A model generated the notes under the pieces. The model was given only the letters and a program-made list of their open reading frames with translations. It made no database searches and was not told the DNA's origin. Positions 30-27,350 of a stretch of DNA of 47,242 bases are shown here, piece by piece. The stretch comes from an uncultured Verrucomicrobiota bacterium (GTDB lineage Bacteria; Verrucomicrobiota; Verrucomicrobiia; Limisphaerales; CAIQOK01), in NCBI GenBank assembly GCA_903873415.1, contig CAIQOK010000037.1, positions 1-47,242 on the forward strand. The letters are read 5' to 3'. The position numbers and the translations under genes are program-made. How positions within the stretch are numbered: position 1 is the stretch's first letter; the number at the start of each line of letters is the position of its first letter.

Positions 30-1030
30 TCAAGGCCACAATTCAGCTTGGGTATAGCAGGCGGCAATAATCAGCCGGCGGCGGCGCATACGGCGCAGTG
101 CGGCTGTGGCTTCAAAACTGAGTTCCCAGGCTTGCGTGGCGACCAGATTGGCAATCTCATGTGTTTTGAGATGCCCCCACATATACTCGACCGGATTGAG
201 TTCGGGCGCGTAAGCCGGCAGCCGTTCGATTACGAGGCGACCTTTGGTGGCGGCCACATGGTTTTTGACCAGCAGGCTCCGGTGGATTGGTGCGCCATCC
301 CAGAGGACCAATATTTTCCCGGGAAGATGGCGCTGAAGATGGCGCAGAAACTCGACGACTTGGAGGCTCTTGATGCTGCCGGCATGAATCTGGAAATAGA
401 ACCGCCAGAGCGCCAGACCCCCGATGATGGAAAGACTTTTCCAGTTAAAGGTCTCATGCAACACCGGGGTTTTTCCGCGTGGAGCCCAAGTGCGGGCGCG
501 CGTGGGGCGGGTGCTCAACCCGCTTTCGTCAATAAAGACGATGGTTCGCCTTTGCTGCCGGGCCTTTTTTTTAATGCCGGCCACTCCGTCCGCTGCCAGC
601 GGCGGATTTTCTGTTCGTCGCGCTCCACTGCCCGGCGTTCGGGACGTTGGCAACTGAAACCACTGGCTCCAAGCAACCGCCAAACATGACCCGGATGATA
701 CCCCACCCCAGTCAGGTCTTCGATGAGCGACGCGACGCGTGGCAAAGTCCAGAGCGCCGTCTTGTAACCGTGAGCGACCGGGCCAGCCAGCAACGCTTCG
801 GTGACTTGCTGAGTTTGCGCCACCGTCAGCTTGGCCTTGGGTCCCGCCGGCCCCTTGCTCGCCAACGCCTGACTTCCGCCTTGATCCCAGGCGCTTTTCC
901 AGCGGTAAGCCACCTGTCGCGCGACGCCGAGACGGCGGGCGACATCGGGGGCGGAACATTCTTTGGCAAACAGCTTGCCAGCCTTTTTACGGCGCTTTTC
1001 CATCGCAGCATGATCTCGCGTCTTCGACAT
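30..1030 (-). CDS. IS630-family transposase, two frames joined by a predicted -1 frameshift
   Basis: DDE transposase for the surrounding element. The first frame (ATG at 1030, MSKTRDHAAM, to the stop at 515) holds the N-terminal helix-turn-helix region (DVARRLGVARQVAYRWK). The second frame, ending at 30, holds the catalytic domain: FIDESG (first Asp), LWDGAPIH (second Asp) and NPVEYMWGHLK (Glu). The frames meet at a run of eight A on the coding strand (565-572), a slippery heptamer A AAA AAG; a -1 slip joins ...ALKK to KKARQQ. Joined, the protein is about 333 residues, normal for IS630. A TTG codon at 1051 is a possible alternative start. The split could instead be a fixed mutation, but the slippery site favours programmed frameshifting. 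Confidence 0.85.
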
Positions 1031-5265: not shown

Positions 5266-8200
5266 TCAGGAACGCCGGCCCGAGGCCGCGGGGGCCCCTT
5301 CCCAAGCGGTGCCGGGTGGCAGTTCTTCGCCCTTGACCACAAGAGATAACGGCCCCAGTCGGACTCCGTCACCCACACGGGTGTTATAAAGAATAATGCT
5401 CCGGGCGCCTACGGTGACCCGCGCCCCAATATCCACACGTCCGATTTTCATCACCCGGTCTTCAAACAAATGGGTTTGCGGACCGCACCAGGCGTTGAGT
5501 TCCGCTTCATCCCCAATCCGGACGCAATCAAATTCCGTCAGATCGGTGGTGTTGAGATAAACACCCCGTCCGATTCTCGCGCCGAGCAGGCGCAGGGCCC
5601 AAGGCAGCAGCGGGGTGCCGCGCAACATGTCCAGAAAGTTGCGGACGGCGAGCGATTCATACAGATTCGTCACCGCTTCACTGATCCACACAAACGGGGT
5701 CCACATCGGAGCGGCATGCGGGCGGTAACGGCCGATAAGAAGCCATTTCAAAGCGACAACGACGAGAAAAGAGGTCAGCCCATAAAGGCAGCCGGCCAAA
5801 GCCAGGGCCCCGGCCACCGCCAGACCCCAGCCTTCACGCGCTGCCAGCGGCATGATTAAAATCACGATCAGGTAACCGGTGGCGATGACTGCGGCGAGCG
5901 GCAGAACGATTCGCAGGGCTTCGATGGTAGCCCGCGCCGCGCGCCGTCGGCGGGAAGGACGGAAGGTGAGTCGCTCTGCAAAACCCTCCAGTTGTTCCCG
6001 GGCCGGCAACAGCAATGGGGGCGAGCCCATCCAGATCTGGCCGGATTGAAGTCGGGCGTTGGCCGGAACTCGGGTTTGCACGCCGATCAGAACATCGTCG
6101 GGCACCATGGCGCCATCAGATACGTAGGCACCGTTGCCAACAAAAGACCGGTTCCCGATCCGGGTCGGCTTCAAAATCATCCAACCACCACGCACCTCTT
6201 CATCGCCCAGCAGTGCGCCATCGGCCACAAAGCTGTCCGCGCCCAGACTCAGGAGTTCGGGGATCATTCCCTCCGCCGTGGAAACCTCGGCGTTGGCACC
6301 GACCTTGGCACCCAGCAACCGCAACCAGAGCGGCGCAAAAACCGAGGCATAGAGGCCGTGCAGCACTTGCAGGCTGCTGTCCAGAATCAGGGCCATGAAT
6401 TTTTTCCGCCAGAACGCCGGGCTGTGGATGGAAAACATCCCCGCCGTTTGCTTCGGCAACCCCCACCGCAATCCCGCCGTCAGGCACAAAGTCAGTCCCA
6501 CAAACAGGGTGGCGGCCGGAACGGCCAGCAGGAACACAAGACCAAAGGCGCTCAGCGGCTGCACATTGGCCTCAAAAATATCCAGCCAATGCGCATCCAG
6601 CCAGTCGATCAACATGAAGGCGGGAAAAGTGGGAAGGAAAAAGAGCACGGCGACGACGACTGCGCTGGCGGCAAATCCCAACGCGTGCACAGCGTGCCTC
6701 AGGGGTGTGATTTCGGGCCGGGCCGGCAAAGGTTCCACCATCTCCAATGATTGGCGGGCGGGCGACCCCTCCCAGATTTCACCTGCAGGGATTTCCCGGC
6801 CCGCTGCCAGCGCGGATAACCCGCCCAACCGCGCCCCCAGCCCCAGCCGTGTGTCATTCTCCAGAACCGCATAAGAATCCACCACCGCATTGCGCTCCAG
6901 ATGGACCGGCCCGAGAATGAGCCAACCGCCTTCAACGCGGGCATTTTCAATATTCACAAACGAACCAATGCTCACCCCGTCATCGATCCTCAACAATTCT
7001 GGCGCGCCCAGAGTCAGTGTATCTACCATCACATCCCGGCCCACCTTCGCGCCAAGAGCGCGAAGATACAGCGGCATCCAAGGTGTGGCGGCCAGCCAGT
7101 GAAGATCGGGCAATTCGGAAAACTTTCCGGCCAGCCACCAACGAAAATAAGTCACGCCCCAAAGGGGAAAACGTCCGGCAGGCAGCGACCCGGCCAGCCA
7201 CCGCTTGCCCGCCACCGCAATGGCGAAGTTGGCCAACTGCGCCAGCAGAAAAGTGCCCAGTGCCCACATCACGGCCCTCCCGATACTGTCGCTCGGATCC
7301 CCGGTCAGATAATGATAGACAAAAAACGGGGCCAGCCAGTCAGCCATGTGCATCAAGATGAAGAACGGAATCACCGCGGCCTGAGCCAGACCGCACAGAA
7401 GCCGGCGGCACAGCGGTGTTTCCGCACGCGGTGCCCCATCCGCCTCCGGCTTCTGGAGCCGGACCTTGGACATGGCTCTGGCGATGCCGTCCAGTCGCCG
7501 TTCGCGGTAAATTTCCTGAACACTAAATCCGGCGTAAAGGCGGTCGCCGCGCAGGTTCGAAACCAGCCGCGCGGCCAATAGCGAGTGCCCCCCCAGATCC
7601 GCAAAGAAGTCCGCTTCCGGCCGGAGTTGATGTCCGGGAAAGAGCCTCCTTAACGCCGCAAAGAGAAACGCCTCGTCCTGGTCGCGCGGCTCCAATTCTT
7701 CCTCTGTGGGGGGCGCAGCGACGGTCAGCGGCAGCCCGCGCAGAACGGCATGATCCGCCTTCCCGGAGAGGAGCCGCGGCAAATCGGCCACCAGCTCAAC
7801 ATGAACCGGCACCATATAGGGCGGCAGCTCCGCAGCCAGCCTCTGACGCAAGCCCCCAGGCGTCAGCCTGTGATTCTCCGGAACCACGGCAAAACCGACG
7901 ATTTGATCCAGCCCACCCAGCGAACGGATGACTACGGCCGCCGCGGTCACACCGGATTGCCTGGTCAGCACGGCGGCGATTTCGTCCAATTCCACCCGGA
8001 ACCCCCGGATTTTAACCTGATTATCGGCGCGACCCAGGCAATATGCCGGCCCGCCGGGCTCGATCCGGGCCAGATCACCCGTGAGATACATTTGCTCCTC
8101 GTCGCTGTTTTGGGCTGCGGGATTGTCGACAAATTTTTCCGAAGTCAAATCGGGCCGTCCCAGATAGCCCAAAGCCAGACCCGGTCCGAAAACGCACAAT

Positions 8201-9288
8201 TCGCCCACCCGCCCCGCGGGTAAAACCCGGCGTTGCTCATCGACCACCAGCAAACCGTAATTGGGGAGCGGATAACCGATGCTGACAGGTTGGCCTGGAT
8301 GCAACTCCGCCAAGCTCGCAGAGACGCAGGCTTCCGTGGGACCGTAGGTGTTAAAAACCCTAACACCCGGACGGCTCAGACGTTGCGCCAATGCGGACGG
8401 GCAGGCCTCGCCACCCAGGTTCACAAGCCTTACGCCCCGCGGCAGTTCCGGCAGAATCCCCATCAATGTTGGCACGGCGTGAATCACGCTAATGCCCTGC
8501 TCCAAGAGCGCCTGAACCACTTGATCAGGATCTCCGACCACCTCGGGTGGCGCCACCCAAAGCGTGGCGCCGACAAGATAGGCTATCCAAATTTCCTCAA
8601 ACGACATGTCGAAGGCGACGGAGAATCCCTGATAAACCCGGTCCTCTTCCCGAACTCCGAGCAGGGTGTTTTCCGCCCGCAGGAAATGACAGATGCTGCG
8701 GTGGCTAATGACGATGCCTTTGGGCTGCCCCGTGGAACCAGATGTGTAAATCACGTAGGCCGGGTCGTCCGAAGCTGCGCGGGGGCCCGACGGCAGATCC
8801 TCTTCCATCTGCAAATCTTCCAAAGCCCAGACCGGCACGGATATTTGTTTGAGTCGCGGCAGCCATTGGCGGCAGGTGACCAGGCCACGCGCTTGAGCTG
8901 ACTTCAGACAGGTCTCAATCCGGTCCACGGGAGTATCGGCATCAAAGGGCAGCCAGGCGGCGCCGCTTTTGGTGATGCCAGCCTGCGCGATCAGCAAATC
9001 CGCCCCACGGGGAAGAAACAGCCCGCAAACCGTCCCGGGCCCCGCTCCACGGCTTGCCAGAGCCGCACCCACAATGTCGCTGCCGGAATCCAGTTCGCCG
9101 TAAGTCACGACCCGCCCCCTCCAAATCAAAGCGGGCTGCAAGGGCCGCCTCCGTGCGGTGAACGCTAAAACATCAGAGAGACACTCGCTGAGCAGAAGAT
9201 TCGGCCGCCGGGATCCGCGCAACACAGATGGCTCAAGCGCAGCCGCAATCAGGGGCGGGGCGGGCGGGGTTGAATCGCAATTTTTCAC
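5266..9288 (-). CDS. Pls-like nonribosomal peptide synthetase: adenylation, carrier and membrane acyltransferase-like domains
   Basis: A 1,340-residue single-module synthetase. The adenylation domain (about 1-520) has A3 YTSGSTGQPKG (181-191), A4 FDMSFEEIW (226-234), A5 NTYGPTE (313-319), A7 LTGDL (402-406), A8 GRADNQVKIRGFRVELDE (419-436) and the A10 lysine K510. A carrier domain follows, with the phosphopantetheine serine in LGGHSL (Ser569). There is no condensation or thioesterase domain. The C-terminal half has six hydrophobic segments separating three left-handed beta-helix (hexapeptide) domains, the architecture of epsilon-poly-L-lysine synthetase and TIGR02353-type proteins. It probably makes an isopeptide-linked amino-acid oligomer or transfers one amino acid. 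The GTG start at 9288 has a predicted promoter just upstream. Confidence 0.87.
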   Translation of the reverse strand: MKNCDSTPPAPPLIAAALEPSVLRGSRRPNLLLSECLSDVLAFTARRRPLQPALIWRGRVVTYGELDSGSDIVGAALASRGAGPGTVCGLFLPRGADLLIAQAGITKSGAAWLPFDADTPVDRIETCLKSAQARGLVTCRQWLPRLKQISVPVWALEDLQMEEDLPSGPRAASDDPAYVIYTSGSTGQPKGIVISHRSICHFLRAENTLLGVREEDRVYQGFSVAFDMSFEEIWIAYLVGATLWVAPPEVVGDPDQVVQALLEQGISVIHAVPTLMGILPELPRGVRLVNLGGEACPSALAQRLSRPGVRVFNTYGPTEACVSASLAELHPGQPVSIGYPLPNYGLLVVDEQRRVLPAGRVGELCVFGPGLALGYLGRPDLTSEKFVDNPAAQNSDEEQMYLTGDLARIEPGGPAYCLGRADNQVKIRGFRVELDEIAAVLTRQSGVTAAAVVIRSLGGLDQIVGFAVVPENHRLTPGGLRQRLAAELPPYMVPVHVELVADLPRLLSGKADHAVLRGLPLTVAAPPTEEELEPRDQDEAFLFAALRRLFPGHQLRPEADFFADLGGHSLLAARLVSNLRGDRLYAGFSVQEIYRERRLDGIARAMSKVRLQKPEADGAPRAETPLCRRLLCGLAQAAVIPFFILMHMADWLAPFFVYHYLTGDPSDSIGRAVMWALGTFLLAQLANFAIAVAGKRWLAGSLPAGRFPLWGVTYFRWWLAGKFSELPDLHWLAATPWMPLYLRALGAKVGRDVMVDTLTLGAPELLRIDDGVSIGSFVNIENARVEGGWLILGPVHLERNAVVDSYAVLENDTRLGLGARLGGLSALAAGREIPAGEIWEGSPARQSLEMVEPLPARPEITPLRHAVHALGFAASAVVVAVLFFLPTFPAFMLIDWLDAHWLDIFEANVQPLSAFGLVFLLAVPAATLFVGLTLCLTAGLRWGLPKQTAGMFSIHSPAFWRKKFMALILDSSLQVLHGLYASVFAPLWLRLLGAKVGANAEVSTAEGMIPELLSLGADSFVADGALLGDEEVRGGWMILKPTRIGNRSFVGNGAYVSDGAMVPDDVLIGVQTRVPANARLQSGQIWMGSPPLLLPAREQLEGFAERLTFRPSRRRRAARATIEALRIVLPLAAVIATGYLIVILIMPLAAREGWGLAVAGALALAGCLYGLTSFLVVVALKWLLIGRYRPHAAPMWTPFVWISEAVTNLYESLAVRNFLDMLRGTPLLPWALRLLGARIGRGVYLNTTDLTEFDCVRIGDEAELNAWCGPQTHLFEDRVMKIGRVDIGARVTVGARSIILYNTRVGDGVRLGPLSLVVKGEELPPGTAWEGAPAASGRRS

Positions 9289-9650
9289 GTCTTCCGTCTG
9301 TTAATCCGGCTCCGGAGATTCGAACAACGCCAAACTCAATCACTGGCATCGATCCCTCGGGTGTTAAAACCAAGACGCCTACAATTGGAGGAAGGTTACG
9401 GGGCGATATGTGAAACTTGAAGACCGGCGGTGGAGTTCGACAACAGGTCAGATGACCTTTGATCAGTGTTCACGAGGAAAAACCACCTTCTTCCCGATAC
9501 GGTTGAACCGACTGAACACGCCAATGACACCCGCTTTGCGCAGCGCATTGCCCCACTTTTGGAACAACCCGCAGACCGGACTGACCGGGGACAAACCAAG
9601 GTGATTGGAATCCGGTGATCAACAAGGCCCGGCGGAAGAATGATTTTTTA
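9289..9650. other. Intergenic region between the Pls-like gene and lepB
   Basis: No credible gene was seen on either strand. It contains the predicted promoter of the Pls-like gene at 9299-9327 and a perfect 6-bp inverted repeat, AGGTCA-GA-TGACCT, at 9445-9458 that could be an operator. A segment with a TTCGAA-like core at 9319-9324 does not fold as a tRNA. Confidence 0.5.
9299..9327 (-). promoter_or_regulatory. Predicted promoter of the Pls-like synthetase
   Basis: On the minus strand: TTGTTC (9327-9322), a 17-bp spacer and TTAACA (9304-9299), then 10 nt to the GTG start at 9288. This is another case of a -10 box almost touching the start codon. Confidence 0.4.
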
Positions 9651-10223
9651 CTACCGGATAACCAAGCCCAGCAAATTAGCACGAGGCACCGGACCGTAAA
9701 CACGGCTGTCGAGACTCTGCCACCGGTTGTCGCCCATGACGAAAAACTGTTCCGGACCGCATGTGAATTTCTCCTCATGAATCCGCCTTCCAGTGAAAGT
9801 CGACATCCGGGGTGCCAGGTAAGGCTCGTCCAAAGGCCGCCCGTTCACATTCACTTTCCCCTCATTTAAATGCACCGTCTCTCCGGGCATCGCGATGATG
9901 CGTTTCACGGCGATGACCCCATCCGTGGGGTCCTTAAGCACAACAATGTCTCCTCGGTGCGGCGAGTGCATATGAAGAATCCAGCGGTTGAGAAAGTAGT
10001 GATCCGCGTTCCTGAGCGTGGGCAGCATACTCACGCCTTGAACCTCCACGGTCTGGAGAAAATAGTGGCTGATCACCAGATAACTGCCCACCGCCAAGGC
10101 GGCAACCACCAACGCATGGCAGATCTGCGAAAACCAGGGAACCGGGCGGGAACGAATCTGAGCACCGACATTGTCGGAACTGGGAGCCACAACCTTTTCG
10201 CCGGGAGCAATGTATAATTCCAT
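9651..10223 (-). CDS. lepB: Signal peptidase I
   Basis: Membrane-anchored serine-lysine protease that removes signal peptides of exported proteins. From the ATG at 10223 the product has 190 residues: one membrane segment (ALVVAALAVGSYLVISHYF, about 37-55), the catalytic serine in GVSMLPTL (Ser65), the general-base lysine in AVKRIIAMPGE (Lys107), and the conserved MGDNRWQSLDSRVYGPV box. The frame extends upstream to 10286 (MWLFFAWRSLAKEQ...), a possible longer start, but the shorter form fits the family better. It is divergent from clpB. Confidence 0.9.
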   Translation of the reverse strand: MELYIAPGEKVVAPSSDNVGAQIRSRPVPWFSQICHALVVAALAVGSYLVISHYFLQTVEVQGVSMLPTLRNADHYFLNRWILHMHSPHRGDIVVLKDPTDGVIAVKRIIAMPGETVHLNEGKVNVNGRPLDEPYLAPRMSTFTGRRIHEEKFTCGPEQFFVMGDNRWQSLDSRVYGPVPRANLLGLVIR

Positions 10224-10391
10224 ATCGTCAATGTCTTGCCTGCTCTGTTCTTTAGCCAAACTACGCCACGCAAAAAACAGCCACAAGCATTGGGTCTTAG
10301 GGGGAGTTACGGAACCGGATCAGGGATTCCCCCGGGATCTGGGCCGCGGCTTGACCCGGGGATGCAGGCTGGGAGCGGCACCAAACTTCAC

Positions 10392-10419
10392 TTGACGAAG
10401 CAGGCCGACAGACTATGAA
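10392..10419 (+). promoter_or_regulatory. Predicted promoter of clpB
   Basis: TTGACG (10392-10397), a 16-bp spacer and TATGAA (10414-10419), then only 6 nt to the ATG at 10426. Transcription would start at or next to the A of the start codon. I saw no CIRCE or other heat-shock operator. Confidence 0.45.
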
Positions 10420-10425
10420 GTAGTC

Positions 10426-13023
10426 ATGCAACTGGAAAAGCTCACCCTAAAATCACAAGAAGCCTTGCAGGAGGCTCAACGACTGGCCCGGGCGTCTTCA
10501 CATCAGCAGATGGATGGCGAGCATTTGCTGCTGGCACTCCTCAGCCAGGATCAAAGCCTGGTCCCTGCGGTGCTGGGCAAATTGGGTGTTCAAACCCCCG
10601 CCCTGACGGGCGAACTGGAACGCGAACTGGGCCGCCGGCACAAGGTCCAAGGCACCACCGATGTTTTCCCCAGCGCCGCTTTGCGCCAAGCACTGGAAAC
10701 GGCCCAGGCCGAAGCCGCCAAACTCAAGGACGATTATGTCAGCACTGAGCATCTGCTTCTGGGACTCCTGGCCAAACCCGATGCGTCGCTGGAAAAAATC
10801 CTCCAAACCCACGCGTTGAAGCGGGACAAGGTTCTCAAAGCGCTCGCGGACCTGCGGGGCAACCAGCGGGTGAGCGATCCGGAGCCCGAAGCCAAGTTCC
10901 AAGCACTCGAAAAATATGGCCGCGACCTCACGGCTCTGGCCCGCCAGGGAAAGATCGACCCGGTCATCGGCCGCGACGAAGAAATCCGCCGCGTGATGCA
11001 GGTGCTGACCCGGCGCACAAAGAACAATCCCGTGCTCATCGGTGAACCGGGCGTGGGCAAAACCGCCATCGCCGAGGGCCTGGCCCGGCGCATTGTCAGC
11101 GGCGACGTGCCCGAATCTCTCAAAAACAAACAGCTCGTGGCCATGGACCTGAGCGCCATGATCGCCGGGGCCAAATACCGCGGAGAGTTCGAGGACCGCC
11201 TCAAAGCCTTCCTCAAAGAGATTTCTTCCAGCGAACGCCGCATTTTGCTGTTCATCGACGAACTGCACACTCTGGTCGGGGCGGGTGCGGCCGAGGGCGC
11301 CACCGATGCGGCAAACATCATGAAACCCCAACTGGCACGAGGCGAACTGCGCTGCGTCGGCGCCACCACGCTTGATGAATACCGCAAACACATCGAAAAG
11401 GACCCGGCCCTCGAGCGCCGCTTCCAGCCCGTCCCGGTGGCGGAACCGACCGTGGAGGCCACCATCGCGATCCTCCGCGGCTTGAAGGAACGCTACGAGG
11501 TGCATCATGGAGTCCGCATTCAGGACGCCGCCCTCGTGGCCGCCGCCACCCTCTCGCATCGCTACATCGCCGACCGTTTCCTGCCCGACAAGGCAATCGA
11601 CCTGGTCGACGAGGCGGCCTCGCGCATCAAAATGGAACTGGATTCCAAGCCGACCGAGCTGGACCAACTGGACCGGCAGATTCTGCAACTGGAGATTGAA
11701 CGCGCCTCGCTTGCGAAGGAAAAAGACACAGCCAGCCGCGAGCGCCTGCACAAAATCGAAGTCGAACTGGCCAACCTTAAGGACAAATCCAAAGCCCTCA
11801 CTGCCCAATGGCAGAATGAAAAAGCAGCGGTCAATGCGGTGAGCATTGTCCAGTCCCAGCTCGAACAGGCAAAGCTCGAACTTGAACAGACCCGGCGGCG
11901 TGGCGACCTTTCCCGCTCGGCCGAGATCCAATACGGCCGCATTCCAGATCTGGAAAAGAAACTCTCGGCCATGGAAAAACAGCCCGCCCAGACTCCCCGC
12001 GCATCCCTGCTCCGCCAAGAGGTGACCGATGAGGACATCGCCCGGGTGGTAGCCGCCTGGACGCGCATTCCAGTGGCACGGATGCTGGAGGGCGAGCGGG
12101 AAAAGCTTGTGAACATGGAGCTGAGGCTCTCCCGGCGCGTCATCGGCCAGCGCCAGGCCCTCGCCGCCGTGGCGAATGCCGTGCGCAGATCCCGCAGCGG
12201 GTTGCAAGAGCCCGACCGCCCCATGGGCTCGTTCATCTTTCTGGGGCCAACCGGCGTGGGCAAGACCGAGACCGCCCGCGCCCTAGCCGAATTCCTCTTC
12301 GATGATGAAGCAGCGATGGTGCGCATCGACATGAGTGAATACATGGAGAAACACACCGTGGCCCGGCTCATTGGCGCCCCGCCGGGCTATGTGGGCTATG
12401 AGGAGGGCGGACAACTCAGCGAAGCGGTGCGCCGGCGCCCCTACGCGGTGATACTCTTCGACGAAATCGAAAAAGCCCACCACGATGTTTTCAACGTGCT
12501 CCTTCAGGTGCTCGACGACGGCCGGCTCACCGACGGCCAGGGCCGGACAATCGATTTCAAAAACACTCTTATCCTCATGACCAGCAACCTCGGTTCGCTG
12601 ATCATTCAGGACTATTTCATGGAAGGAAAAACCTCCGCCGGCTCGCGCCAGTCGATGGAAGACAAGGTTCTGGCCGAACTGAGACGGCATTTCCGCCCGG
12701 AATTTCTCAACCGCGTGGACGACACCATCCTCTTCCAAAGCCTCGACGAGGCGGAGTTGGGACAAATCGTGGATCTGCAGTTGGCGCGGGTGAAAAAACG
12801 GCTCGGCCTCCAAGGACTGGAAATCGCTATGGACGAGTCTGCCAAAAAACTCATCGCCAGCGAGGGTTACGATCCGCAGTTCGGTGCCCGTCCCCTCAAA
12901 CGGGCCATCCAGCAACATCTGCTCGACCCGCTGGCCAGCCGGCTTCTGGCCGGCCAATTCAAACCGGGCGATACCATCCAAGTGAGCACCGATGGCACCG
13001 GCCTGATCTTCAAGACCAATTAA
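10426..13023 (+). CDS. clpB: ATP-dependent chaperone ClpB
   Basis: Hexameric AAA+ disaggregase that works with DnaK to recover aggregated proteins. The 865 residues show the double Clp N-domain (1-145), a first ATPase with Walker A GEPGVGKT (206-213) and Walker B LLFIDELH, the coiled-coil middle domain (about 405-525, rich in Leu/Glu/Lys) that distinguishes ClpB from ClpA/C, and a second ATPase with Walker A GPTGVGKT (607-614) and [11 protein letters not shown]. The C-terminal domain carries the sensor-2 motif [11 protein letters not shown]. Full length with no defect. A 569-residue open frame on the opposite strand is a codon-usage shadow. Confidence 0.97.
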
Positions 13024-23217: not shown

Positions 23218-23562
23218 CTACTTCTTCGGTGCCGGAGCGGAGGTGGCACTCAGTCCATACTTCGCGGCGATCTCCTTGAAATCAGGGTGGAGTTTGGTGT
23301 AGTCCTGCAACTGCTTGACGAAGGCGTCCATCTTGGGGCCGCTGGTCTGCTGGTATTCGGCGATCTGGGCGGCGGCCTGCTGGCGCAACATGTTGAGATC
23401 AGCCCGGGTGTAATGCACCTGGCGCCAGAGGAAGATGTTCAGTGTGACGCTGACGCCAACCAAGCAAACCAAGACTGTGAAGAGGGTTTTGCTCAAGGCG
23501 GCCACTTGCGCGCGGAGGTTGACGGACTCCTCGGTGCCGGAATTGGGAGAAATAGATTCCAT
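23218..23562 (-). CDS. Small membrane protein with N-terminal helix and coiled-coil tail, paralogue of its neighbour
   Basis: A 114-residue protein I do not recognise by name. One membrane helix (LFTVLVCLVGVSVTLNIFLW, about 27-46) is followed by a Gln/Ala-rich, probably coiled-coil segment (RADLNMLRQQAAAQIAEYQQ). The ending DYTKLHPDFKEIAAKYGL matches EYSKTHPAIDPVLVSVGL in the upstream gene, so the two look like diverged paralogues. They lie 26 bp apart in one operon with a clear terminator. The tail should be periplasmic or cytoplasmic depending on helix orientation, which I cannot settle. Confidence 0.75.
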   Translation of the reverse strand: MESISPNSGTEESVNLRAQVAALSKTLFTVLVCLVGVSVTLNIFLWRQVHYTRADLNMLRQQAAAQIAEYQQTSGPKMDAFVKQLQDYTKLHPDFKEIAAKYGLSATSAPAPKK

Positions 23563-23588: not shown

Positions 23589-23861
23589 CTAGCGGGCGCC
23601 GTTCTTCAAATTGCCGGCGGCGGGTTTCAAACCGACCGAGACCAGAACCGGGTCGATAGCGGGATGAGTCTTGCTGTATTCGACTGTTTCGTTGACCAAA
23701 GCGGTGATGGCGGCGCGGCGGGTGTTGATGAACATCATCTGCATCTGCATGTCGCGGAGCTGGCGGGAGTTGCCTGCATACATAAACAAGAACACAACGG
23801 ACACCACGGTGCTTAATGCAAGCACCCCTACCAACGTGGAGGTGAGAGAATCAGTTTTCAT
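23589..23861 (-). CDS. Small membrane protein, first gene of the paralogous pair
   Basis: A 90-residue protein with an N-terminal helix (LVGVLALSTVVSVVFLFMYA, about 11-30), a Met/Gln-rich stretch (SRQLRDMQMQMMFINTRRAAI) and a C-terminal YSKTHPAIDPVLVSVGLKPA. The last motif (Y-x-K-x-H-P, then GL) recurs in the next gene. Function unknown. It is the promoter-proximal gene of a two-gene operon. Confidence 0.72.
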   Translation of the reverse strand: MKTDSLTSTLVGVLALSTVVSVVFLFMYAGNSRQLRDMQMQMMFINTRRAAITALVNETVEYSKTHPAIDPVLVSVGLKPAAGNLKNGAR

Positions 23862-23909
23862 AAATCGCCCTTGAAACTAGCCGGTTGGCTCCAATTGTCC
23901 ACAGTGTTT

Positions 23910-24560
23910 TTAAGCCGGCACGGCATCCAAGCGGCGCCGGAAAAGAGCGCAGGCAACTGAAATCTCCGGGGCGTTCAAAATGGCTGAGACCACGCAAATC
24001 CGCCTCGCCCCCGCAGCGAGCACCTCGTCCAGATTTCCCGGATGGATGCCGCCTATGGCGAACCAGGGCATCGACACATTCGCAGCCGCCCACCGGACAT
24101 AATCCAGCGTGACCGGCCGGGCGCCGGGCTTGGTGCCTGTGGCGTATACCGGCCCGATGGCTACATAGTCAGCGCCGGCTCCCGCAGCCCTCGCCGCCTG
24201 ATCGGGGGCGTGGGTGGAAAGCCCGATTTTCAAAGCGCTATTCCGCATCGGAAGCTCCGAGACATGCCGATGCCCTGCATCGAAAAAATCCTCCTGCCCC
24301 AGATGGCAGAACTCGGCGCCAACCGCCCGGGCGATTTCAAGATGGTCGTTGATTACCAGCCCGACTCCAGCCCGGCAAGTGACGGGGGCGATTTTTTCCG
24401 CCAGTCGTAAAACATCCTCGTAGCCGGCGTTTTTGGCGCGGAGTTGGATCAGGTCGGCGCCGCCATCGCAGAGCTGTTGAGCAATAGACTGCGGCGCGCG
24501 GCCATTCAAATAAGCCGTGTCGACAAAGGCATAAAGCCGGCAATCAGAGAGGGGTTTCAT
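23910..24560 (-). CDS. thiE: Thiamine-phosphate synthase
   Basis: A 216-residue TIM-barrel enzyme that joins hydroxymethylpyrimidine pyrophosphate and thiazole phosphate. Motifs are QLRAKNAGYEDVLRLAEKI, VGLVINDHLEIARAVGAEFCHLGQED, KIGLSTHAPDQAARA, GADYVAIGPVYATGTKPG and FAIGGIHPGNL, the standard ThiE set. The ATG at 24560 overlaps the stop of the FAD oxidoreductase gene (ATGA), so thiE is the last gene of the polyketide operon. I saw no TPP riboswitch. Placement of a vitamin gene here may be coincidental coupling or may mark a ThiE-like enzyme used in the pathway. Confidence 0.88.
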   Translation of the reverse strand: MKPLSDCRLYAFVDTAYLNGRAPQSIAQQLCDGGADLIQLRAKNAGYEDVLRLAEKIAPVTCRAGVGLVINDHLEIARAVGAEFCHLGQEDFFDAGHRHVSELPMRNSALKIGLSTHAPDQAARAAGAGADYVAIGPVYATGTKPGARPVTLDYVRWAAANVSMPWFAIGGIHPGNLDEVLAAGARRICVVSAILNAPEISVACALFRRRLDAVPA

Positions 24561-25600
24561 CGCGTTTTTCGGAACATCCTCTGCCAGATCCAGTCGGAAT
24601 TCAACGCCATGGTGAAAGGCCCGCTGCGGGGCGCCCCCACCAACACCAGCCATTGCAGCACCCGCGCCCAGAACAACCGTCGCCCAAAAACCCTGTCACA
24701 CCGTCCTGCGACCGCCTTCTGCGCCTGCTCCCAAGACACCACGCCCCGACTCCACGCCGTCAGAGGATCGAGCGCCAGCTCGGCGGATTCAAAGGCCATC
24801 GACATCCCATTGCCTGTGACTGGCGGCGTCATTGTGACACTGTCACCAACGGAAAAATCGCCCTGACCCGAGGCGCGGCGGGGACTCAGGCTCAGACCGG
24901 CGACCGAACAAAAAGTATCCGGCTCAAAAACCGCGTTGCCAAGCCGCTGCCATAATACGGATCCGGGTTTACCCCGCAACAACTCCAGACCGCCTGCCGC
25001 GGTGTCCGCAGCACCGGCCCGTCGGCGAAAGAGACCGCAGACATTGACGGCACCGCCGCTGGTCACCCCCACGCCCACATAGCCGCCGCTGGCAACGTGC
25101 ATCTCGAGATCAGCCGTGAGCCGGACTCCCCGCGCGTGGACTTTGAGTCCAAACCAGCGCCAGCCCTTCTCCGCGGGCTGCGGGCGGCGACCGGTGGCGC
25201 GAAGCACCCCCTCCTCGAAACCGGGGCCCGCCCAGCGGGAACTCACACGCAATTCGCCGCCCAAACGCCGGAACTCGGCGGCCAACAGGGCGTCCATGGC
25301 ATAACGGGAAAGACAGAGCGCGGACCGGGGTGTCCGATGCACCGGAAAAGTCCGATGCAATGTGGAAAACACCACCGTGTCCGCCAAAACGGCACCGGCA
25401 TGCTCGAACAAAGAATTCAATCCCAACCGGATAAGAACGTCCTGTCCACGGCCACTGATGAATTCGCCGCAGACCCGGTGACGCGGGTAGTTGCCCGCCT
25501 CCCAAATCGTGACCGGCACACCACGCTGACGCAGCCCGATCCCGGCGGTTAACCCGGCCAATCCCCCGCCAACGATGGTGATGGATTTGGAAGGGATCAC
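24557..25600 (-). CDS. FAD-dependent oxidoreductase (monooxygenase/geranylgeranyl reductase-like)
   Basis: A 347-residue flavoprotein. The dinucleotide-binding motif GGGLAG lies near the N-terminus (SITIVGGGLAGLTAGIGLRQRG), followed by RVCGEFIS and, late in the protein, the flavin-binding GDSVTMTPPVTGNGMSMAFESAELA. This is the layout of aromatic hydroxylases and geranylgeranyl reductase-like enzymes. The GTG at 25600 overlaps the stop of the methyltransferase (GTGA); the longer open frame upstream is inside that gene. By position it is a likely tailoring oxidase or hydroxylase acting on the product of the type III polyketide synthase. Confidence 0.82.
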   Translation of the reverse strand: MIPSKSITIVGGGLAGLTAGIGLRQRGVPVTIWEAGNYPRHRVCGEFISGRGQDVLIRLGLNSLFEHAGAVLADTVVFSTLHRTFPVHRTPRSALCLSRYAMDALLAAEFRRLGGELRVSSRWAGPGFEEGVLRATGRRPQPAEKGWRWFGLKVHARGVRLTADLEMHVASGGYVGVGVTSGGAVNVCGLFRRRAGAADTAAGGLELLRGKPGSVLWQRLGNAVFEPDTFCSVAGLSLSPRRASGQGDFSVGDSVTMTPPVTGNGMSMAFESAELALDPLTAWSRGVVSWEQAQKAVAGRCDRVFGRRLFWARVLQWLVLVGAPRSGPFTMALNSDWIWQRMFRKTR

Positions 25601-26292
25601 GATTTGCTTTTGGGCCGCGCAACAAACAGGTGACTGAAAAGTCCGGCTCTCCGTTCGCTCAACTCCCAGTTTTGCGCCGCGGGCCATAGACCGGAAAGTT
25701 CCCATCCCCAAAATCCCGCCCGGACACTGGCCGTTGCATCGTGGCGGGTCACCGGCCCGCAGCCGACCAGGCCGACCAAACGGCTGAAGATCAAGGGCAG
25801 AGCTGCGCGGCGCGGTTCGACGGCGACAAACGCCCAACCAGCCCGGGCGGCGAGTCCGAAAACCTCTCCCAACTGCTCCCGGGTCAAATGATGAAGAAAC
25901 AAATTCACCACCACAACGTCCGCGTCGCCGGCTGCTGCCTGCCGCATCCAGCTCAAAGCATCAGCAACAACTGGATCAACCTGCCAGCCCCGCGCCTGAA
26001 AGGCGGCGCGGTGAACAGGATCAAACACGGCCGCACGATCAACCAGCGTGGCTTTCGCGTTGGGCCAGGACAAGCGCCGTGCGGCACGCAAGAGACAGCC
26101 GCCATCCCCCGAACCCAGCTCCACCAATCGCGGCGCCGGCTGGCCATTCGAGATATCGGCCAGCGCCCCGGCCAAAATACGATCATGTCCCATAAGGACG
26201 TTCAAGCGCCTCAGATCGCGCCGGGAACGAACCGCCTGCGGATCCTCCGGCAGCAGTTCATCAAGTAATTCTGGAGTCAGGCACCGATCCAT
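25597..26292 (-). CDS. Class I SAM-dependent methyltransferase of the polyketide operon
   Basis: A 231-residue methyltransferase. Motif I is LVELGSGDGGCLLRAARRL, followed by ATLVDRAAVFDPVHR and DADVVVVNLFLHHLTREQ. The ATG at 26292 comes 2 bp after the stop of the type III PKS gene, with GGAGGTGGA about 8 nt before it as a plausible ribosome-binding site. A GTG 6 nt earlier is an alternative start. Lying between the PKS and the flavoprotein, it probably O- or C-methylates the aromatic product. Confidence 0.78.
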   Translation of the reverse strand: MDRCLTPELLDELLPEDPQAVRSRRDLRRLNVLMGHDRILAGALADISNGQPAPRLVELGSGDGGCLLRAARRLSWPNAKATLVDRAAVFDPVHRAAFQARGWQVDPVVADALSWMRQAAAGDADVVVVNLFLHHLTREQLGEVFGLAARAGWAFVAVEPRRAALPLIFSRLVGLVGCGPVTRHDATASVRAGFWGWELSGLWPAAQNWELSERRAGLFSHLFVARPKSKS

Positions 26293-26294
26293 GT

Positions 26295-27350
26295 TCACTC
26301 CACCTCCAAGAGTGCGCCGTGACAAGTAAACCCGGCCCCGAAAGCTGACATCCACCAGTGGCCACCGGGTGCTCCGCCGGCAAGGGCCTGCTGCAGCACG
26401 AATAAAACCGAGGGACTGCTCATGTTCCCATGGTCACGCAGCACCGACTCACTCCAACGGGTGTCATGATCGGTTAGCTGCAGACCTTGGCGAAGTGCCG
26501 CCAGGACATCGCGGCCGCCCGGATGAAACATCCATCCACCTATCTGCGATCTCGCCACTCCGGCCAGCGAGAGGGCGTCTTGAAGGACTCTGGCGGCATG
26601 AGCGGCGGCCAGCAGCGGCACCTCAGGCTTGAGAATATTGCGCAACATGCCGTCCTTCTGTTCGAACCGCAGCAGATCGCGCTCGGCAGGCTGGAGAATC
26701 GATGCCGCCGCCTGCCATTTCACCCGGCGGTTGCCATTGGCCGAATGGGAAAGAACCGCAGCACCCGCACCGTCACCAAAAAGACAGGCGCTGATCAGGA
26801 CACCGGTGTCGTCATCGAGATAAAACGCGGCGCTGCAGACCTCCACGCAAATGGAAAGCACTTGGCGGCTGCGGCCCGAAGCCAGCAGCGCTTCGGCCGT
26901 GCGAAGATTGGGCAGGGCGGCACCGCATCCCTGCCCCACCAGATCAAGTGCCAGAACATCCGGCCGCAAGCACATCCTCTGTGAAACATAGCTGGTCAGG
27001 CCAGGACAGAGGTAACCAGTGCAGGTGCTGATGAGCACGGCATCGATGTCGGAGGCCTGAATCCGCGCGTCGGTCAGGGCGCGGTGCGCCGCCTGCGCCG
27101 CCAAATCCGGCGCCGCATCGAGAAAACGGGCGTGCAGGACGTCAGGCGTCAGGTCGAAGGCGTGGTTCAAATCCGCCAGCGCCAGGTGACGGGTGGCGAT
27201 GCCGTTGTTGCCGGAGAGAACTTTTCTGAGGATAGCCCGGGAGCGCGGCAGCAGCTTGGGGAACCGGGCGGCCGCCTGCATTGCCTCCCAGCACTGAGCT
27301 TGGGTGTAGCACCGGTCCGGCACGGCTGTTCCCAATCCAGTTATGAACAT
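26295..27350 (-). CDS. Type III polyketide synthase (chalcone/stilbene synthase family)
   Basis: A 351-residue homodimeric ketosynthase that extends an acyl-CoA starter with malonyl-CoA without a carrier protein. The catalytic triad is complete: Cys142 in DLVGQGCGAAL, His276 in GWMFHPGGRDVL and Asn309 in LRDHGNMSSPSVLF. Other family marks are TCTGYLCPGLTSYV and LFGDGAGAAVL. The start at 27350 (MFITGLGTAVPDRC) matches the family N-terminus. It is the first gene of a minus-strand operon with a methyltransferase, a flavoprotein and thiE. Likely products are alkylresorcinols, alkylpyrones or small phenolics; the starter unit cannot be read from sequence. Confidence 0.9.
   Translation of the reverse strand: MFITGLGTAVPDRCYTQAQCWEAMQAAARFPKLLPRSRAILRKVLSGNNGIATRHLALADLNHAFDLTPDVLHARFLDAAPDLAAQAAHRALTDARIQASDIDAVLISTCTGYLCPGLTSYVSQRMCLRPDVLALDLVGQGCGAALPNLRTAEALLASGRSRQVLSICVEVCSAAFYLDDDTGVLISACLFGDGAGAAVLSHSANGNRRVKWQAAASILQPAERDLLRFEQKDGMLRNILKPEVPLLAAAHAARVLQDALSLAGVARSQIGGWMFHPGGRDVLAALRQGLQLTDHDTRWSESVLRDHGNMSSPSVLFVLQQALAGGAPGGHWWMSAFGAGFTCHGALLEVE

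Follow-up and report, generated by a model that had tools for sequence, protein, structure and literature searches.

A conserved type III polyketide synthase, methyltransferase and flavoprotein gene unit with an adjoining thiE in an uncultured Verrucomicrobiota bacterium

Overview of the gene unit

The stretch of DNA analyzed here (the window) comprises 47,242 nucleotides of contig CAIQOK010000037.1, assembly GCA_903873415.1, from an uncultured Verrucomicrobiota bacterium of the order Limisphaerales (referred to below as the order). It carries four adjacent genes encoding a type III polyketide synthase (PKS), a class I S-adenosylmethionine (SAM)-dependent methyltransferase (MT), a flavin adenine dinucleotide (FAD)-dependent oxidoreductase and the thiamine-phosphate synthase ThiE (Table 1). 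The PKS-MT-FAD trio is a genuine biosynthetic unit beyond chance: of the 38 usable related loci of the order, 33 have the three genes in this arrangement, as do 72 of the 80 loci examined in a wider genome scan. Taken together, the features described below make it probable that the trio is dedicated to the formation of a methylated, oxidized aromatic compound, with a PKS from a clade of its own, and that thiE is a passenger.

The four minus-strand genes and their spacing, as given in a first-pass annotation of this DNA, were confirmed base for base. The catalytic triad of the PKS is also intact, residues 142, 276 and 309 being Cys, His and Asn. In Pfam and NCBIfam, the PKS matched type III PKS/FabH-like domains, the MT matched Methyltransf_25 and the FAD protein matched a FAD-binding protein family. 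For all three proteins, these matches were to general families only or lay below the curated cut-offs for named enzymes.

Table 1. Features of the PKS-MT-FAD-thiE operon in the window.
Feature	Position	Strand	Remarks
Type III PKS	26295..27350	-	ATG start, 351 aa; Cys142/His276/Asn309; Phe229 at the ArsB Trp281 site
Class I SAM-dependent MT	25597..26292	-	231 aa; 2 bp behind PKS
FAD-dependent oxidoreductase	24557..25600	-	GTG start, 347 aa; closest matches are flavin-dependent halogenases and monooxygenases; lacks the catalytic lysine of halogenases
thiE, thiamine-phosphate synthase	23910..24560	-	216 aa; sole genome copy
PKS-MT gap	26293-26294	-	2 bp
GTGA stop/start overlap, MT to FAD	25597..25600	-	seen in the sequence
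ATGA stop/start overlap, FAD to thiE	24557..24560	-	seen in the sequence

Conservation of the PKS-MT-FAD trio

Ninety-seven genomes of the order were searched for the PKS. Clear relatives were present in 39 of them, including the window's own genome, while the other matches were mostly weak and FabH-like. In the order loci with the trio, the gaps between its genes were mostly short, or the genes overlapped. The locus counts were made by reading the result tables, and the genomes of the relatives are drafts in which contig ends hide some neighboring genes. A genome of the window's own genus (L208, G001:C403) contains no PKS relative of this family. A second family member occurs in genome G011 at L068 (G011:C4); this PKS is less closely related (about 49% identity) and has no MT or FAD matches beside it.

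The genome scan was made with a mixed alignment, and the best 80 of 506 relatives were examined. These came nearly all from Beta- and Gammaproteobacteria, plus two from Nitrospirota and two from Verrucomicrobiota; because likeness to a Caballeronia protein set their ranking, they say little on the spread in other phyla. The MT and FAD genes adjoin the PKS gene in the 72 loci mentioned above, and a ketosynthase (KS) gene lies downstream in 53 of the best 80. PKS proteins of the order and of Proteobacteria are 55-61% identical, and the MT proteins about 40-48%.

In the Beta- and Gammaproteobacteria (L072 and L077-L153; for example L086, positions 9194-10707), the trio is usually followed by genes for an acyl carrier protein (ACP) and a FabF-like KS, which together form a compact five-gene cluster. 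No published description of this cluster was found. On a Caballeronia plasmid, ACP and KS genes likewise come after the trio. Beside the loci of the order, the search for ACP and KS genes gave a single weak KS match, in L032.

The PKS forms a separate clade

All of 55 members of the PKS family have the Cys and the His of the catalytic triad, and 54 have the Asn, the remaining one showing a gap there. A 72-row tree placed the family in one clade with a support of 100/99 and a long stem, whose members come from Verrucomicrobiota, Nitrospirota and Beta- and Gammaproteobacteria. It stood apart from PKS11, the synthases partnered with ICMT-type methyltransferases, THNS and the PKS18 group, the last of which also contains Deinococcus and Psychrobacter enzymes. 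With PKS11 and the ICMT-partnered synthases, the window PKS shares about 26-30% identity.

The first-pass annotation had likened the operon to srsABC and proposed a phylogeny of the PKS against SrsA. This comparison turned out against an SrsA-type PKS: a single clade uniting the family with PKS11 and three ICMT-type/bcsA synthases, which served as proxies for SrsA (relatives likewise stood in for SrsB and SrsC), was rejected by the approximately unbiased (AU) test (p 0.013). A clade with the Deinococcus and Psychrobacter synthases, stand-ins for HidC, was rejected as well (AU p 0.025); the comparisons with HidC and PkqA rest on such proxies.

Among the references, DpgA was placed nearest to the family, with a support of 95/89 in the 72-row tree and 91/90 in a reduced tree. 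The best NCBIfam match of the window PKS was also a DpgA model (NF042429, 178.2 bits, below the curated cut-off of 425). Because the support drops in the reduced tree and both trees carry the program's long-branch warning, so that the join to DpgA may be false, this kinship is kept as an unsure lead only.

Phe229 of the window PKS aligns with Trp281 of ArsB and W230 of PKS11, and Phe occupies this site in 54 of the 55 family members. A Trp at this position was reported to be conserved in the resorcinol-forming synthases SrsA, FtpA, PKS10 and PKS11, and in ArsB (PMC5916927), and the same site was used likewise for the Streptomyces PkQ synthase (PMC9927152). DpgA also has Phe there, but with a two-residue insertion, and the PKS18-like enzymes have Leu-Gly.

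The methyltransferase and the FAD-dependent protein

The MT gave only generic class I methyltransferase matches in Pfam and NCBIfam, and none to PF04140 (ICMT). The nearest solved folds to its predicted model (predicted local distance difference test score, pLDDT, 95.3) were all SAM methyltransferases. Since C-, O- and N-methyltransferases all occur among these matches, the methylated atom cannot be told. By its family matches and its model, this MT belongs to the soluble class I enzymes and not to the ICMT type. In contrast, the MT genes located behind two PKS11-related synthases, of Alloyangia and Sphingomonas, belong to the ICMT family. SrsB is a membrane-bound ICMT-type methyltransferase.

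The PF01494 match of the FAD protein covers residues 7-120 only. In a profile search, the halogenases CmlS, ChlB4 and PltA ranked first. The predicted model (pLDDT 90.2) had its best matches, with Z scores of about 28-32, among flavin halogenases, and aromatic monooxygenases came close behind, nearly on a par with them. No conserved Lys was found in 31 sequences of the order at the positions aligned with the catalytic lysine of halogenases (the VKK region of CmlS and PKK region of PltA), and the WxWxI motif was not found in any row of the alignment. A halogenase identity was therefore set aside despite the top profile and fold matches. Given the missing lysine, the protein, a flavoprotein of the monooxygenase fold, is tentatively read as a monooxygenase or as another kind of oxidase.

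thiE and its linkage to the trio

ThiE scored 165.9 bits against TIGR00693 and thus passes the equivalog-domain cut-off of 145.1 in NCBIfam. It is the sole match to the TMP-synthase family in the genome; a different contig carries ThiC. Among the relatives, thiE is nearly always present in a single copy and usually lies away from the trio. The first-pass annotation had asked whether thiE is always last in this operon. It follows the trio in only 9 of the 34 trio loci of the order, namely the window and L033, L034, L035, L037, L040, L045, L048 and L058. Where it is linked to the trio, pfkB is usually found behind it. In the window, two short open reading frames (ORFs) downstream of thiE (23600-23862 and 23218-23562, minus strand) occupy the place that pfkB has in many relatives; no match to either was found in the order loci compared.

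Where thiE lies elsewhere in trio genomes, it is preceded by the biotin carboxylase gene accC; in two cases, a histidine kinase gene takes this place. In the window-genus genome that lacks the PKS, thiE, which is cut by the contig end, lies behind a malate-dehydrogenase-like (mdh) gene, as read from the sequence. Locus L046 shows a 28-aa thiE match behind the FAD gene (2826-2909 from the PKS start), while an intact thiE is located on another contig; this match is likely a remnant of a lost linkage. On the PKS tree, the linkage is clustered: it requires 5 changes, compared with a mean of 8.2 after shuffling, and only 1 of 500 shuffles was as low. A single origin as one clade was rejected (AU p 0.0001). 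These results fit an old neighborhood of thiE and the trio that has repeatedly been lost or re-established, and they give no sign that the two share a function.

No Rfam family was matched in the window, and therefore no TPP (thiamine pyrophosphate) riboswitch. Together with the varied upstream neighbors (accC, histidine kinase gene and mdh), this weakens the case for a functional coupling of thiE. The coupling had been called unexplained in the first-pass annotation. Its tight overlap stands, and it can now be accounted for by a single housekeeping copy whose upstream neighbor varies. Thus thiE looks like a housekeeping passenger, an optional neighbor of the trio.

Proposed pathway and alternative explanations

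The PKS would condense a starter with malonyl-CoA extenders and cyclize the chain to an aromatic core of the resorcinol or resorcylate type. The soluble class I MT would methylate this core, and the FAD enzyme would subsequently carry out an oxidation that most likely yields a hydroxylated or quinone product. Such a working mode would resemble that of srsABC, pkqABC and hidABC, with a PKS of a separate clade, while thiE would be an ordinary single-copy thiamine-phosphate synthase gene co-transcribed as a passenger. This succession of polyketide formation, methylation and flavin-dependent oxidation is proposed because characterized operons share the three enzyme classes (PMC10896814, PMC8086630, PMC9927152). 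From the gene content and by analogy with these operons, we infer that a methylated, oxidized resorcinol-type aromatic is the most likely product. Phenolic lipids or quinones, as suggested by the first-pass annotation, are possible. The genome has matches to the futalosine-type menaquinone pathway (MqnA/D family) and to the UbiA family; a polyketide quinone would therefore add to menaquinone rather than replace it.

Several observations weigh against the proposed pathway. The nearest characterized PKS is DpgA, with an identity of only about 32%, and a resorcinol is a less secure conclusion given the Phe at the Trp281 site. The FAD proteins of the order and of Proteobacteria are only 22-27% identical, with 22-25% in one of the comparisons, and thus far more divergent than the PKS. 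Because this identity is so low compared with those of PKS and MT, the oxidation step may differ between the two lineages. Moreover, a product for any member of the PKS clade was not found in the open-licence papers searched, and we know of no member whose product has been established.

Other explanations were weighed against the dedicated aromatic pathway. A true srsABC/pkqABC-type system, which would turn fatty acyl-CoA starters into methylated phenolic-lipid quinones with long chains, shares the gene order of the trio, and Streptomyces and Mycobacterium operons of that order yield polyketide quinones (alkyl benzoquinones) in actinobacteria (PMC9927152). It is nevertheless unlikely: the PKS falls outside the PKS11/ICMT-partnered group (by proxies, SrsA itself not being compared), has Phe and not Trp at the diagnostic site and is accompanied by an MT that is not of the ICMT type, and the MqnA/D- and UbiA-family matches mean that a polyketide quinone would not be the genome's only quinone. 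The same Phe, together with the tree position and the best NCBIfam match, could instead speak for a DpgA-like synthase that uses malonyl-CoA only and gives a small dihydroxyphenyl-type aromatic, which would then be methylated and oxidized. This, too, appears improbable, as the 178-bit score is far below the cut-off, dpgB and dpgC partners are not adjacent, both branches are long enough for a false join according to the program warning, and DpgA has the two-residue insertion beside its Phe. The ACP and KS genes behind the proteobacterial trio also point to an acyl-ACP supply there.

Formation of alkyl-pyrones that are O-methylated by the MT, as in the Bacillus bpsAB pair, would agree with the absence of the Trp tied to resorcinol formation (PMC5916927). 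However, the site is filled by a bulky Phe and not by small or aliphatic residues as in the PKS18-like enzymes, and simple pyrone ethers need no conserved FAD enzyme, which makes this explanation very unlikely. Even less can be said for a functional tie between thiE and the pathway, for instance by supply of thiamine diphosphate (ThDP) or by action on the product. The tight ATGA overlap and the linkage, which is clustered and occurs in several families (9 order loci), are in line with such a tie; none of the three trio enzymes is known to require ThDP. On the other side stand the location of thiE behind other genes in most trio genomes and in the window-genus genome without the PKS, the L046 remnant with its intact thiE elsewhere, and the lack of a TPP riboswitch in the window.

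Other features of the window

A 1340-aa ORF (window positions 5266-9288, minus strand) looks by eye like an adenylation domain with membrane and hexapeptide-repeat acyltransferase-like regions behind it. At the left end of the window, an ORF (30-959, minus strand) resembles an IS630-type transposase, also by eye. A tRNA scan of the window found none, promoter and terminator scans gave no clear excess over shuffles, and PADLOC returned weak partial matches only.

Significance

Annotation reads type III PKS operons of this gene order as phenolic-lipid or resorcinol clusters. The window operon departs from that model in its synthase, in its methyltransferase class and in a product-determining residue, and the trio is conserved in three phyla. 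It is possible, although we propose it only tentatively, that the separate PKS clade with its own MT and flavoenzyme represents a widespread unstudied pathway in Verrucomicrobiota, Nitrospirota and Proteobacteria, the last with additional ACP and KS genes, leading to a class of methylated, oxidized aromatic that does not come from the SrsA, HidC, RppA or DpgA lineages. If the clade makes a product of its own, what is currently predicted for it is incorrect. With about 2.8 kb, the trio is small enough for direct expression and testing. The linkage of thiE invites a functional story, and the present analysis points instead to an optional neighbor.

Comparison with known systems

The likeness to srsABC holds for gene order and broad enzyme class and fails for SrsA-type membership, as judged by PKS clade, Phe229 and the soluble MT. 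Like srsABC of Streptomyces griseus and pkqABC of Mycobacterium smegmatis and Streptomyces sp. MNU77, the window trio is a small three-gene operon in the order PKS, methyltransferase and flavin oxidoreductase. It differs from them in the clade of its PKS, in having Phe in place of Trp281 and in its soluble class I MT, as against the ICMT enzymes beside PKS11-related synthases.

The three enzyme classes are also shared with the hidABC hierridin clusters of cyanobacteria and with an MT-FAD-PKS operon of Planctomycetota (PMC8086630, PMC10896814). In these operons the PKS is usually last, unlike in the window, although the order hidC>hidA>hidB was found in cyanobacteria as well (PMC8086630). Remotely similar MT and FAD proteins adjoin the Psychrobacter and Deinococcus PKSs. 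Co-expression of comparable PKS, MT and FAD genes in C. glutamicum led to C-methylated alkylresorcinols (PMC10896814). For the planctomycetal operon, co-expression of MT and FAD genes gave a single C-methylation and the role of the FAD protein stayed unresolved (PMC10896814), which is a fair warning for the window operon.

DpgA, the 3,5-dihydroxyphenylacetyl-CoA synthase, resembles the window PKS as its nearest tree reference and best NCBIfam match and in the Phe at the Trp281 site. The low identity and the score far below the cut-off set the two apart, as do the partners, which in the window are MT and FAD proteins and not DpgB and DpgC; dpgB and dpgC are absent from the four genes of the operon and present at the Streptomyces dpgA locus. 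The closest counterpart in layout is the PKS-MT-FAD-ACP-KS cluster of Burkholderiales and Gammaproteobacteria, as in plasmid pSBC2-3 of Caballeronia sp. SBC2, which shares the PKS family, an orthologous MT and the gene order. It differs in the dedicated ACP and KS genes that follow and in a longer FAD protein, about 22-27% identical to those of the order.

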